A DNA stretch of 64,000 nt. Origin: Paenibacillus aceti (lineage in GTDB: Bacteria; Bacillota; Bacilli; Paenibacillales; Paenibacillaceae). The stretch is taken from NCBI RefSeq assembly GCF_003614185.1, contig NZ_KZ987724.1, positions 3,129,324-3,193,323 on the forward strand, in the 5' to 3' direction. The notes under the pieces are model-generated. The model searched no databases and was not told the DNA's origin. It saw only the letters and a list, made by a program, of their open reading frames with translations. The stretch's first letter is position 1. The number at the start of each line of letters is the position of its first letter. The translations under genes were made by a program, and so were the position numbers. Shown in pieces: positions 1,915-11,562 of the stretch.

Positions 1915-2145
1915 TTACCTGCAGTTACTACACTCGATTAAGGTTAGCTTTTCCTTGTAGCTAATATCGTAAATGTCTAGGGCTTCCTCTTTTGACCGAA
2001 ACAGATTCCAGTTTCCTGACCCCTGTTGTTTCTTCCATCCAAGCTCGGTTCTCTGTTTCATTTCCGTGACATACTGACATAAATCATGGTCAAGGTGCAC
2101 GGTGTACGTTTTCAATGGAATGTCGATATTTGCCCAGGCTTTCAT
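1915..2145 (-). CDS. Small protein coupled to the PLD-EVE gene
   Basis: A 76-residue hypothetical protein whose ATG overlaps the stop of the preceding PLD-EVE gene (ATGA overlap), with a Shine-Dalgarno AAGGTGAG inside that gene. Translational coupling implies a joint function. It ends in a Cys-rich tail (IECSNCR), so metal binding is possible but unproven. I do not recognise a family. The transcript ends at the terminator 1862-1905. Confidence 0.65.
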   Translation of the reverse strand: MKAWANIDIPLKTYTVHLDHDLCQYVTEMKQRTELGWKKQQGSGNWNLFRSKEEALDIYDISYKEKLTLIECSNCR

Positions 2146-3194
2146 CTACTCACCTTCTTTGATTTTACACTTCCTTCGATTAATTCTATGGCATGCTTAG
2201 CAAATGCATCGGTCAGTTGTATTCTGTCTGACCCACGTTGCAATGCTCTAAGTGTACTTCCGCCAACATTGGTTACAGGATTAACATGGTCATAAGATGC
2301 TACGACACTGGATATCGTATTATCAAATGTGACCCAAGATTCACTATACTCTGGACATAAGTTCTTTGCTTCTAATTCCCATGACCATCTGCTTGTGCTA
2401 TCCCAAATGTAAGGATCGCTGACTACCTCAAAATAACCTAAGAGCTTCGTTGTGCCAACCCCATAACAGATTAAGATGTCTCCGATTCGGACAGGATTAG
2501 GTCTTCGAGCAAAATGCATTTTTTCTATACCGTTGTTCAGTTTCCTTGTTGTTGCGAATGGACGGTCGGAGTAACCGACAGGCTTAATGAAATACCGAAC
2601 ATCTGATTTAAGTTCCACAGTTTTCTTCTTAAAGAGATGACCCACCTCAAGGTCAATCTTTGTTTTCTGCTGAGCTGCTACATTTTCAGTATAGTTGTCA
2701 ATCTTTTCTATGATGCCTTTAAGCTCCTCGTGAGTAAGAGCGTGGCTGCTAACATTGAAGATATCGGCAATAACCTTCTTCAACGATTCTTGATCCTCAA
2801 TTAGTACGCCCCACTCATGATTTTTGTTTAGCCCACTATCTGTAAAGTTTGCAGAAGTGATAATACCCCTCAGAGGGATTCCATTCTTTCGTGCAATATA
2901 AATCTTCCCATGTAGCTTATTGTCTACATGAACTCGAAAAGCAATGGAATGAGTAACACAATTTAAAAGAAATGAATGTAAAGAATCAGCCTTTTTCAGC
3001 AGGTCAGGATCATTGTCCTTTAAGGTTGTTACCAGTACAACCCGCTTCACATCTGAAGAAGCGATAATCTCGTCAAAGAAAACATCAAATGATTCCATCA
3101 GGAACGGACTGACAATATGTAGCTCGTCCGTTCCATCTACAAGTTGCTTTAGCTCATCAAAATGTCTGGAATCAATGTTATTCAGAATCCTCAT
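2142..3194 (-). CDS. PLD-family nuclease fused to an EVE/PUA-like domain
   Basis: A protein of 350 residues in two parts. Residues 1-170 match a single phospholipase-D-type nuclease domain: H95-x-K97 (LHGKIYIA), then the conserved SANFTDSG segment with N116, then NHEWGVLI. Residues about 200-345 resemble the EVE/PUA-like fold: RIGDILICYGVGTTKLLGYF followed by EVVSDPY. PLD enzymes of this type act as dimers on DNA or phosphodiesters, and EVE domains in other proteins recognise modified bases. A nuclease aimed at modified DNA, as in type IV restriction, is therefore a reasonable inference. It is coupled to the 76-residue gene after it. Start ATG at 3194 follows GAAGAGG. Confidence 0.75.
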   Translation of the reverse strand: MRILNNIDSRHFDELKQLVDGTDELHIVSPFLMESFDVFFDEIIASSDVKRVVLVTTLKDNDPDLLKKADSLHSFLLNCVTHSIAFRVHVDNKLHGKIYIARKNGIPLRGIITSANFTDSGLNKNHEWGVLIEDQESLKKVIADIFNVSSHALTHEELKGIIEKIDNYTENVAAQQKTKIDLEVGHLFKKKTVELKSDVRYFIKPVGYSDRPFATTRKLNNGIEKMHFARRPNPVRIGDILICYGVGTTKLLGYFEVVSDPYIWDSTSRWSWELEAKNLCPEYSESWVTFDNTISSVVASYDHVNPVTNVGGSTLRALQRGSDRIQLTDAFAKHAIELIEGSVKSKKVSR

Positions 3195-3317
3195 GTATCC
3201 TCTTCCTTTATGTTTGATTGTTCTAACCTACCTATGTATATTCCAGTCACTTTTGCATTATGACAAAACCTAATAAAATTTTATGAGACTCACTGAAAAT
3301 CGGTACCTAACAACAAA

Positions 3318-3358
3318 AGTAGCAGTATAGATCCCATTAAAGAGTTCTATACTGCCTT
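3318..3358 (-). terminator. Intrinsic terminator ending the protease operon
   Basis: GCAGTATAG (3322-3330) pairs with CTATACTGC (3347-3355). It lies just downstream of the stop at 3383 and has nearly the same stem as the terminator at 201-243. Confidence 0.7.
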
Positions 3359-3382
3359 TTATTTACCTTCTTGCTAAATAGA

Positions 3383-4174: not shown

Positions 4175-4948
4175 TTAGAAGAACTCCTTTTCAATTAACT
4201 CAGCTACTTCGTTAAACGGAATTACCCATAGGAATCCTGCTTCCTTATTCCCATTTGACAAAATACCGAGAAGTCTGAAAGGTGTCTCAGTATCCCGCCT
4301 ATATGAATATGCAAAGGAACCGCTCATCCCATTGAAAGTGGGCAATTTATGCCCGTGTTGACCAAATTCGTTTATTCCATCCGTACCTGCTAGAAGCACG
4401 ATCCTTTTAGATGCATCATCCACCCGTTCAATAAAAGTTGTATATGGTGTTGTTTCCATTTCAACAATGAAATCTTCATAGTTAATGTTAGTTTCTTCAC
4501 CAGTAATACCGTGTAGAAAAACAACATCTGAGATTTTGTCAAAATAGCCCAGTGGATCTTCATCAATTAATGTATGATCTAAAAAACATTTTCTATTTTC
4601 TTGTTCCATTAACCGAGCCGATTGGGGATCTATCTCGATTACTGCAATATCGCTTTCTTTATCATCCACATGCTTAATAAGCGTCAAATACTTCGTTTCG
4701 ATTCCATACTGATAGGGAATTACAACATCCGTCAGCCGTTCTTCTTCCGAGACTAAACTTAATACGTGACTTGCAGTTACCAAAAAATATCTATCTTGAT
4801 ATTTAAGAAAACCCGCTGACCCTAAAGAACCAAGTTCGAATCCTGGAACCCCAGTCTTATTAAATACGCGTGTGAGAATCGGTCCCGACCATTCTTTACA
4901 CTCTACTGTTTTCTGTAACAGTTCTGCTTGCTCTATTATTTTTTCCAT
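4175..4948 (-). CDS. Trypsin-like serine protease, cytoplasmic
   Basis: A protein of 257 residues with a complete trypsin-fold triad: His61 in LVTASHVL, Asp100 in ESDIAVIEID and Ser209 in NGMSGSFAY. There is no signal peptide or membrane anchor and no PDZ domain, unlike HtrA-type proteases, so it probably acts inside the cell. Stand-alone cytoplasmic trypsin-like domains occur as effectors in bacterial conflict systems, which fits its position next to a PLD-EVE nuclease. The gene lies between a GNAT gene (26 bp upstream) and a helical protein gene (63 bp downstream). Start ATG at 4948 follows AAGGAG at nine bases. Confidence 0.8.
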   Translation of the reverse strand: MEKIIEQAELLQKTVECKEWSGPILTRVFNKTGVPGFELGSLGSAGFLKYQDRYFLVTASHVLSLVSEEERLTDVVIPYQYGIETKYLTLIKHVDDKESDIAVIEIDPQSARLMEQENRKCFLDHTLIDEDPLGYFDKISDVVFLHGITGEETNINYEDFIVEMETTPYTTFIERVDDASKRIVLLAGTDGINEFGQHGHKLPTFNGMSGSFAYSYRRDTETPFRLLGILSNGNKEAGFLWVIPFNEVAELIEKEFF

Positions 4949-7238: not shown

Positions 7239-10200
7239 TTAATTCTCTGGAGAAAACACGATGAAGTTTAGATCGTCTGCCAACTCGACTTGCGTAATGG
7301 TGTCGCCATATTTAATGTACAAATCAATATTCCTGAAGCTATTTGGCTTTCGGAAAACCACTTTGAATGCACTTGCAGCATAACCAGTAAGATCAATGAC
7401 AGTTTCAGGCTTCGCCTTCACCCTAATCTTTTTAATCAGCAGATTAGCTCCGTTGTAAATCACCACATTCCTTCTTCTGGAATACGCCAGAAGAATTATG
7501 ATTAGCGGGGGAGTCGCCACTATCGGAACGATAGGGAACTTCTTGTCAGGCGATACCGGTTCTGGTTGTTCAATGGCTTCAATAACGAAGTCAACCCGTT
7601 GAGTACTCATTGATTCATTTAATTCGATTGACCGTTTTACTTCTTCTGCTACTTGCACCGATTCAACCGTAGTCGAATCTGAGTCTCTGTAGTCCTTGTA
7701 CGCAACAACGTTGATCCGAGAAATTTCTTTGTCGGTAAATGGATTTTTCAATATAACCGTATGCTTCCCAAGCTCGACATTCTCAAAGCGGTACTCGCCG
7801 TTCTCGTTGGTAAAAGTAATTCGTGGATCGGAATGAAGTTCGACTTTTACTCCCTGCATAGGATTACCGTTCGCGTCCTTCACAACCCCGTATACAACAC
7901 CAAACAGTTCGTTCGGCTCAGCTTCTTTCAGATACCTGAAGGTAACTGTTAAAGATTCACCATTCTCGCTGATAAATACCGTTTGCTTATCCGATCCGAT
8001 CAAAGAGTAGCCAGCGATAATGGGGGCTTTGACCTCATTCAAACCTAAGTGCAAGGTATCGATTTCCTCAGTTTGGAGAAACTCCTCGGACTCATGATCT
8101 ACAGCTTCAACGAGCAAAGTATCCATTTTCTTTTCAACCACTGGAGCAGGCACTGTGCTCACATGGCTGCTTCCTTCTCGGTCTGGATTAAGATCCTGAT
8201 CCTTTTCATTCGATTTTGTTTCAGGCTCCGGCTGTGACTCTACCTTTGGTAATTCCGTCTTGGGTGTCGGTTCAGGTTTCGGCTCTGGTTTCGGCTCTGG
8301 TTTCGGCTCTGGTTTCGGCTCTGGTTTTGGCTCAGGCTTCGGTTCCGGTGTTGGTTCTGGCTTCGGTTCTGGCTTCGGTTCTGGCTTCGGTTCCGGTTTC
8401 GGTTCTGGCGTTGGCTTTGGTTCAGGATCAGGGCTAGGTGTCGGTTCAGGATTTGGCTTCGGCTCTGGTTCAGGTGTCGGAATGACAACGTCTTTCTTAT
8501 AGAAATAGGTCAGCTTTCCGAATGGCTCGGCTGCTGTTAGTACGACATTTTTAACAGCTTCTCCAATTAGCTTATATACCCCGATAAACGCATCAGCTCT
8601 ATATGAATGATCACCTAACGGCAAATCCGACAGAATTACATCTTCTTTGAGCTTACTGTTCGTTTCCCAATCAACAAATTCAACTGCTATACTACCTTTC
8701 GGTTCTGGTGATGGAACGACTGGCTCGAAATAGGCTTGGACGATCTTGTCCTCATCCATCTTAAACGAGAGCGACTCTTCAACAATTTCCTGTCCATCCA
8801 TCATCCATTTAGTGAATTTATGCCCCTTAACAAAATTCATTGATACGGATATTTCAGTGCCTTCCTTAAACTGTCCTACTGCGCCGCGCACATCTTGGAA
8901 CACTTCTTTCGTTTCTTCATTTAGAACATTGACTGTACCTTCACCTACGACTTCAACGATCAGCTTGAATTCCTTGGGCGGTGATGTAATGGGGATGAAG
9001 TGCGCTATCGCTTCAACATTACGATCCATATACAAGGTGAGACTCTGATCGTCTGACTCTAGCCCATTCACGACCCATTTCTCGAACTTATATCCCGGCG
9101 AGGGATTAGCCATCAGGCTGACCGATTCAAACTCGGGAAAATTCGTAACACTGCCAGCTGCGAACGGAGTAACTGTTCCCATTCCAACTTGATTAACCGT
9201 TAGCGTATACCGTGTAGGCTGTGGTTGGTTTTGCTTGAAGTGAGCTATTGCTGTTTTGTCGCTGTCCATTTTCAAGCTTACCCCATAACCAAAGGCATCG
9301 AAGTAATCCTCGCCATCAATCACCCATTTTTCAAGTTCATATCCTGGTACTGTATTCCGAGCAGAGATGGAAACCCATTCTCCGTCATCGTATTCGTAAG
9401 TGCCAGTTGCAGGAAAGGTTGTACCTTGCCCTTCCATACCGACTGTTAACTTATGCTTCGCTAATGAAGCAGAAGATTGGTAATAGAAAACGATGACATT
9501 GTCCTTGCTTCCAAAGGTGTCGAAAGTGAGCGGATAAATGCCATGAGATACCCCTTCGCTATGAATATTAACCTCTGTAGTTCCTTTACCAACAATGTTG
9601 TATTCGCCCGCTGTATCGGTAGTGGTCAATATCCCTTCATCCGTAATTGAACTAGTCATATTATCTGGCAGTCCTACATTGGAGATCGATAACCCATTTC
9701 TTGAATTAACTAAGTGACGCTCTGTGCCGATTTTGGAAGTGAAAATATGATCTTTGTTTAAAACATACTTACCTGAATCACCAATGAGGGAATAACCTTC
9801 AAAATTCTTGGCATTGTACGTAATGGAAGCGTTCAAGTCCAAAGACTTGTCCGCTGTCGAATATTCCTCAAAAGATAGCAATTCATCTGTTCCTTTGACA
9901 CGATGCTCGACTCTTAACGTGTCAGCACCTTTAACGAATCGATAATTGTATTGCGGAGTATTGGCTCGGTTGTCGCCCCTCGATAGACCGGATATTTCTA
10001 ACCAATCGTTGTAGAACTGTTTACCTGCTGCCTGGTCGTCAATAAAAATATAATTGTAGTCGAACAGCAACTGAGGTTTTGCTACTTGGTCGAAAAGTTT
10101 GAACAGCTTCGATAAAGTGGGAATGTTACTATTGGTTAAGAAATTGTAACTGAAATCAACCTTATTTGCATTTAGTGTATCAAGCATGCTTACATTGTTT

Positions 10201-11405
10201 AGCCCCTCGATGTTGGAGAGCCGGTTATGACTGAAATCAAGAACACTGGTCGTTGTCGCCGCTGTCTGCGGCTCGATCAACCTTCTCAAATTATTCAAGC
10301 CATCTAGGTCGGTTAATTTGTTATTGGACACATCTAAGTGACTTAGCCTTTCAAGACCGCTTAGCCCGTCAATGTTCTCCAACTGATTATTACTGAGATC
10401 CAGAAAATTTACCCCATTCAGGAAGCTCAGGGCATTCACTTCACGAAGCTGATTGCCGCTAAACTGAAATACTGCATTGTCTGAGAACTTAGGGTCGCGA
10501 AGGATACTGTCCTTGAATAGCTGCAGACCCTCTAAGCTTGTGAATCCCTTGAAATCATCGGAGCCGAATGAGAAGTGTCCTTTATTCTGGTAAAACCTTT
10601 GCATCCTCATTTCGACATCACGCTTATTGATCGTATCGTTGATCGTCCCGTTCCAGACTGGTGTTGTCCATAGTCCCCAAAGCTCGCCCATCCAATGAAC
10701 AAAATAATCTGCCAGCTCACTACTTTGGAACAGCTCGCTCACGACAACATCTTCACCTCGATGGAAGCGAGACATAGCATCTTGTGATCCATAGTCTGTT
10801 TCTGTAGTCCAAGGCTCATCAATACTCAAAAAATTGATGTTTCGTTTACGTGCAAAGCTTTCTGCGGTCGAATTGTTATGTCCGATAATTGTAGCTTGGT
10901 ATGGGATCACAATGTCCCAATCAGACAAACCATTCTTGTCACCAATTATCGTATCAGGATTTTTAAATACAATACTTTTAATTCCATAGCTGTACGCAAA
11001 CGCATTAACCTCGACTCGCTCAACACTTTCAGGTATAACTACGCTCGTAATACTTTGATTACCCAGAAATGCTGCTCCAAAAATCCTTGAAACGGGTCGC
11101 CCTTCGATTGTCGCGGGGATGACCACATCTCCACCTGGTCCGATATACTCTCGGATATAGGCATAAGGTTCATTCATCCATTCCGGATTTAACTCGTAAA
11201 CGAAGTGACTCGGATCGGAAGCGTATACTGCATTCGTAACACTGGTTTCACCGTAAACGGCATCCGTTACGCTCACTTCATTTCCGTAGTCGCTGTCACT
11301 TGGTTGATCATCAGCAAGAGCACTCATTGGGAATAACCCGATGAGTAGAGCGATCACCAAGAGAACTGAGATGATCCTTTTTCTTTCCTGTTTACTGTTT
11401 GCCAC
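7239..11405 (-). CDS. Giant surface protein with LRR, InlB-like and Pro-rich repeat domains
   Basis: A protein of about 1388 residues. A signal peptide ([19 protein letters not shown]) is followed by a BspA-type leucine-rich segment (about 65-160), then internalin-type LRRs (about 310-450; [20 protein letters not shown] and similar). Three InlB B-repeat/Big-like modules follow, each ending in a pattern like AIAHF (about 650-885). Then come MucBP-like domains on either side of a Pro-Glu-Pro-Lys stalk, a carboxypeptidase-regulatory-like domain ([15 protein letters not shown]) and a C-terminal membrane helix ([19 protein letters not shown]). This points to a membrane-anchored adhesin. The GTG at 11405 is nine bases after AAGGAG; the ATG at 11414 abuts the ribosome site, and the frame opens as far as 11501. 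Confidence 0.8.
8260..8480 (-). repeat. Tandem 12-bp repeats encoding the PEPKPEPK stalk
   Basis: About 18 imperfect copies of a 12-bp unit of the type GGTTCTGGCTTC (plus strand) encode Pro-Glu-Pro-Lys repeats. The copies vary mainly at third positions. Such a tract is prone to copy-number change, which would vary stalk length. Confidence 0.85.
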
Positions 11406-11562
11406 ATCCTTCATCTCCTTACTTGTGCTTATTCTTTTTCTCTTGGTCTTATAAATTTGCTCTTGCTGACTGTCTTGAAAATCATCTAATCTCCACAACA
11501 TTTTGAAATTTTTCTAGTAACTAAATGCCAGCAAATCGTGCTTCGATTAGCATAAAAGAAAA

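Follow-up and report, generated by a model that had tools for sequence, protein, structure and literature searches.

Fusions of EVE domains to PLDc nucleases have been predicted to act in modification-dependent restriction (Bell et al. 2020, PMC7641849). A protein of this build, which also joins an EVE-type domain to a PLD nuclease (a likeness of description, not of sequence comparison), is encoded on the minus strand in a stretch of 64,000 nucleotides from the 5.6-Mb genome of Paenibacillus aceti (RefSeq assembly GCF_003614185.1, contig NZ_KZ987724.1, positions 3,129,324 to 3,193,323), hereafter the window. We conclude that this protein of 350 amino acids is probably a single-chain, modification-dependent (type IV-like) restriction endonuclease. 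PLD-EVE fusions as such were predicted earlier, and the family described here is one well-conserved member family.

Several known enzymes resemble it in part. SauUSI (PMC7913695) combines an N-terminal PLD domain carrying an HxK motif with a C-terminal reader of the PUA superfamily and is modification-dependent, but it has an ATPase/helicase between these domains, where the present protein has none, and its reader is of the SRA type and not EVE/YTH-like. BfiI, R.NgoAVII and R.CglI (PMC4267653) are of similar length and also unite an N-terminal PLD domain with HxK and a C-terminal DNA-reading domain, which in their case is a sequence-reading domain of the B3 type; NgoAVII and CglI differ further in their added methyltransferase and ATPase. 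VcaM4I (PMC7897488) likewise pairs one EVE reader with one nuclease, and its EVE domain reads 5-methylcytosine (5mC) and 5-hydroxymethylcytosine by flipping the base, but the nuclease is of the HNH type and the EVE domain is N-terminal. Aba4572I and CbaI (PMC11037411) share the combination of a PLD nuclease and a modified-base reader, but the reader is a winged helix specific for N6-methyladenine (6mA) in GATC, and expression failed; the same paper on these PLD-winged-helix fusions names YTH domains as 6mA readers. No characterised PLD-EVE enzyme appeared in the accessible text of the open-access literature searched, including PMC11090510, PMC12839542 and PMC12707154.

Results

The main gene and its domains are located as follows.

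2142 to 3194, minus strand: main gene, PLD nuclease-EVE/YTH-like fusion protein, 350 amino acids (open reading frame; Pfam PF09565 and PLDc_2; alignment of 14 proteins; AlphaFold2 model)
2685 to 3194, minus strand: PLD nuclease domain, residues 1-170
2895 to 2924, minus strand: DNKLHGKIYI with the HxK motif (H95, K97), invariant in 14 of 14
2841 to 2858, minus strand: TSANFT, residues 113-118, with S114 and N116 invariant in 14 of 14
2604 to 2681, minus strand: linker of low confidence, residues 172-197 (predicted local distance difference test, pLDDT, below 50 for 172-185 and 187-197)
2145 to 2609, minus strand: EVE/YTH-like reader domain, residues 196-350

PF09565 (43.2 bits against a Pfam cut-off of 23.8 for the PLD half) and PLDc_2 are the only families above cut-off in the protein; an ATPase or helicase of the SauUSI type is thus not among the Pfam families found above cut-off in the chain of 350 residues. 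PF09565 is listed for all 14 aligned members at E-values up to 10, the best being 1.1e-12. Residues H95, K97, S114, N116 and E127, together with a GDIL stretch, are identical in every aligned protein, E127 (in HEWG) lying 11 residues past N116. H95, K97, N116 and E127 make up the nuclease set of the NgoFVII/BfiI type, that is HxK with a downstream Asn and Glu; BfiI has the same set with the same spacing. The nearest nuclease match is SauUSI, a DNA enzyme; the best structural matches of the PLD half include NgoAVII and BfiI, aligned solely to model residues 1-178 and 1-168, respectively. Ratios of nonsynonymous to synonymous substitution rates (dN/dS) of 0.07-0.09 in three pairs indicate purifying selection on the gene.

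The second half of the protein, which holds RIGDILICYGVG and EVVSDPY, was modelled alone with high confidence by AlphaFold2 (pLDDT 89.8, predicted template modelling score 0.87). Among the 50 entries listed in the structural comparison of this domain, 45 are YTH-domain proteins, three are EVE proteins (two entries of PH1033, and MJECL36) and two have titles that give no family (2ar1 and 4r3i); a B3 protein is not among these 50, which does not rule out a B3 fold. The predicted structure thus has an EVE or YTH fold, like that of the EVE/YTH branch of the PUA superfamily. On sequence profiles, an archaeal EVE pair alone gave an hhalign probability of 89.7, a pair picked after an earlier result was known; the C-terminal profile retrieved no EVE match from PDB sequences, and the host genome contains no match to the Pfam EVE model PF01878. 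The domain composition, the conserved catalytic residues and the EVE/YTH-like predicted fold are established by these data. An earlier note, drawn from the letters of the window, had described the two genes, the HxK signature, SANFT, the RIGDILICYGVG / EVVSDPY strand set and an ATGA overlap, all of which we found, with both genes at the coordinates it gave, on the minus strand; its proposal of an EVE/PUA-like C-terminal half is borne out by the model.

The nearest named relative, from Paenibacillus humicus, is 93% identical, and its neighbour genes are the same bar one extra frame. Counting the genome itself, 8 of 296 genomes from the family carry relatives, as do 3 of 398 from the class and, with the reader half as query, 3 of 398 from the phylum. 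In a species collection, 18 loci encode relatives, one of them in Dysgonomonas, a genus of Bacteroidota; 13 were aligned as open frames and five are broken or partial (L012, L015, L016, L017 and L018). The PLD-EVE gene is present in a single plasmid record out of 72,556, none of 50,697 phage records matched the protein, and viral contigs yielded no relative of it (in pattern scans) or of the small protein encoded next to it.

This small gene lies directly downstream of the main gene, its start sitting within the stop codon of the 350-residue frame (ATGA).

1915 to 2145, minus strand: small protein, 76 amino acids, with the His/Cys pattern H17, H20, C23 ... C72, C75 (open reading frame; same gene in L002, L017, L027 and L028; dN/dS)

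It is a genuine gene: of the ten pairs that five lineages form, nine gave dN/dS values of 0.04-0.17 and one was not computable. The match of the main gene above the PF09565 cut-off, its relatives at 18 loci, its invariant residues and purifying selection on both genes show that the two are not chance frames. In the window, L002, L027 and L028 the small gene follows the PLD-EVE gene (the L026 copy is identical to that of L002); L027 keeps the small gene open next to a broken PLD-EVE frame, and L028 has no ATG at the position of its start. In L017 it follows a remnant that lacks the PLD half and has an AAA domain (PF13401) attached to the reader half. With the window counted, it is thus present in five of six close lineages (at least about 80% identical); it was not found at L012 or L031, truncated copies that are 79.7% identical over residues 1-232.

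Beyond these lineages the small gene was not found beside any of 15 more distant loci searched at E-values up to 10 (L003-L011, L013-L016, L018 and L019), where chance-level pieces in L014, L016 and L018 (E 4 to 6) do not adjoin the gene, beside any of six further loci searched at E up to 1 (L029, L030, L032, L035, L057 and L058), where a single piece in L032 (E 0.81) lies away from the gene, or beside L061 and L062. Of the last eight loci, at least L029, L030, L032, L061 and L062 probably duplicate L018, L006, L016, L014 and L005, and the downstream sequence available in L005 and L010 is just 1.3 and 2.4 kb. We therefore reject the small gene as a general partner of the family. The conserved coupling expected in the earlier note is confined to close lineages; homologues without the small gene do exist, as it had foreseen for the case against its proposal, but their HxK motif is not mutated. 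Nor is the gene widespread, since a search of 398 genomes of the phylum returned its own genome and three weak matches (E 0.0015-0.006), two of which lie in frames that look YabA-like by eye and the third of which has an internal stop. Membership in a known family was likewise rejected, as Pfam, PADLOC, PHROGs, NCBIfam and PDB sequences gave no match at the limits used. By eye, H17, H20, C23, C72 and C75 are conserved in all five lineages, and these residues suggest that the protein may bind metal.

Neighbourhoods were surveyed through a partial census of 20 chosen proteins and 52 partly overlapping ones (47 of 149 listed and five scanned earlier); the list of 149 omits L002, L010 and L035, frames below 120 amino acids, frames with X and some repeated stretches where loci are nearly identical. 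The neighbourhoods are rich in defence genes, and the flanking proteins scanned revealed no constant partner: for the 25 commonest of 78 Pfam families, none matches more than 4 of the 52 flanking proteins. Neighbours include ThsA and ThsB of Thoeris and an HNH protein (L007), PIN plus Hypoth_Ymh and a HamB-like helicase (L004), AIPR (L013), SIR2 and a DpdF-like helicase (L015), Gabija GajA and GajB (L016), type I restriction genes (L017) and an AriA-like protein (L018). One of nine neighbours named by locus (L011:13420-14853) was unmatched at E up to 1e-20, and L003 has no evident defence gene alongside, as judged by eye. A serine recombinase precedes the PLD-EVE gene in several loci (L009 by Pfam; L008, L011 and L014 by eye).

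Four observations on relatives and surroundings are recorded here. On the Priestia megaterium plasmid (L035, 6628-7626) the back-to-back neighbour of the PLD-EVE gene has weak PUA-like and HNH matches just below cut-off, so that the pair may be two different modified-base nucleases adjoining each other. The AAA-domain frame of P. tyrfis (L017, 7650-8414), fused to the PLD-EVE reader half and retaining the small gene, is either a recombination scar or a new fusion. To the left of the window and onward on the same strand, serine resolvase-like, PIN-like and UvrD-like helicase genes recognised by eye (L060, 16520-17119 and 8082-12296) suggest that the defence-rich stretch extends beyond it. Finally, an EVE match within an open frame of 835 amino acids in a genome of the same family (L055) is possibly part of a larger EVE fusion protein.

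Further elements were noted within the window itself.

1862 to 1906, no strand assigned: terminator-like palindrome 3' of the small gene (pattern match on both strands; similar hairpin in relatives)

Together with two others like it, at 193-242 and 3315-3365, this palindrome (GCAGTAYARRACTC...) makes a set of three terminator-like elements that lie between gene units. Two of them fit a common pattern, drawn up from this window, for which 0 matches were expected in 100 shuffles, and the third was seen as a repeat of the first; by eye, L002, L017, L027 and L028 have a similar hairpin just after their small gene. The palindromes may serve as shared terminators, or they may mark insertion gene by gene. 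The adjacent frames at 783-1265 and 1349-1765 encode unknown proteins that are paralogous (41% identity, E 4e-31) and have no Pfam match above cut-off, and their order is kept in P. humicus (L002). A 257-residue protein at 4175-4948 has a weak PADLOC match to LmuA (E 1.5e-5) and no Pfam match, and appears protease-like by eye; at 7239-11501 lies a surface protein of 1420 amino acids with InlB-type and leucine-rich repeats and, by eye, a long Pro/Glu/Lys repeat.

Discussion

A type IV-like function is the best explanation of the PLD-EVE protein because it joins a restriction-type nuclease to a fold of modified-base readers and stands alone in variable defence surroundings, where it is sometimes decayed. 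The earlier note had proposed a two-gene type IV-like defence; its type IV-like part is retained here as the probable reading, and its two-gene part finds support in one branch, not in the family as a whole. We infer that the target is DNA and that the protein acts in defence: as in BfiI and SauUSI, two PLD domains would pair and build a single active site from their HxK motifs, the EVE/YTH-like domain would flip and capture a modified base in invading DNA, and the PLD dimer would cleave nearby via a covalent histidine intermediate, with neither metal ions nor NTP (nucleoside triphosphate).

Several results weigh against this interpretation. The PLD half has no acidic residue where the classical HKD motif, HxK(x)4D/E, calls for one, position 102 being R, S, C, L or F and acidic in none of the 14 proteins. 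For the reader, the Foldseek E-values are modest (best 7e-5, four matches at or below 0.001), and the 17 families listed for the 14 members with an E limit of 10 do not include PF01878. In hhalign the reader matched a Paenibacillaceae-type EVE profile weakly (probability 6, with one of 50 shuffles higher in probability and slightly lower in score), and pooling the Paenibacillaceae-type with the archaeal EVE proteins gave a probability of 17, exceeded by one of 100 shuffles. Of 12 carrier genomes, 4 encode C5-methyltransferases (by our sorting, 4 of the 8 with an intact gene and none of the 4 with a broken one), compared with 51 of 98 genomes in a family sample that itself includes carriers, so that carriers are not clearly separated and no exclusion points to 5mC. 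Finally, the domain's likeness to RNA-binding YTH domains equals its likeness to EVE.

Like eukaryotic YTH domains, the reader could instead bind modified or structured RNA, and the PLD half would then cut RNA or single strands as an abortive-infection nuclease. We regard this as unlikely: the nearest nuclease match is a DNA enzyme, the Pfam family of the PLD half is named after a restriction endonuclease, and RNA-targeting or Abi-type (abortive-infection) genes occur in just some neighbourhoods.

Somewhat less likely again is a BfiI-like, type II-like endonuclease whose C-terminal domain reads an unmodified site, with a cognate methyltransferase to protect the host. In its favour, the Pfam family is that of NgoFVII (PF09565), the structural matches of the PLD half include NgoAVII and BfiI, and a C5-methyltransferase lies about 4 kb from the gene on the Priestia plasmid. 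A cognate methyltransferase is, however, not regularly alongside, given that no such family exceeds 4 of the 52 flanking proteins; the nearest one noticed in the window, whose genes were scanned in part, is a D12 enzyme 30 kb off, a search of the host genome for C5-methyltransferases found none at E up to 1e-10, and the C-terminal fold is like that of base-modification readers. It is very improbable that the protein is a DrmC- or NgoAVII-like nuclease subunit dependent on a separate helicase or other defence system of the same island, since the PLD half, although matched by DrmC (best E 2.5e-9) and ZacB (1e-8) models, reaches 30.9 bits against a cut-off of 133 in the DISARM DrmC equivalog model (NCBIfam NF038319), and helicases, although near some homologues (DEAD in 4 of 52 flanking proteins), belong to no family above that count.

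Returning to the type IV-like endonuclease, the clade-specific 76-residue protein would serve as an accessory co-translated with it, perhaps as a regulator that binds zinc. It is conceivable, if rather doubtful, that in the Paenibacillus-like branch the PLD-EVE protein and this co-translated protein form a two-protein machine, in which the latter would bind zinc via its His and Cys residues and would either hold the nuclease, itself independent of metal, in check until binding of a modified base or add sequence specificity; such a machine would be a small type IV system that uses no NTP and has a regulator of its own.

If the proposed function is true, the family would represent a very simple modification-dependent enzyme that needs neither metal nor NTP and would be useful for mapping modified bases. 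As its reader is equally EVE- and YTH-like, the family also bears on whether cytosine or adenine marks in DNA are read by such domains outside the Pfam EVE model.
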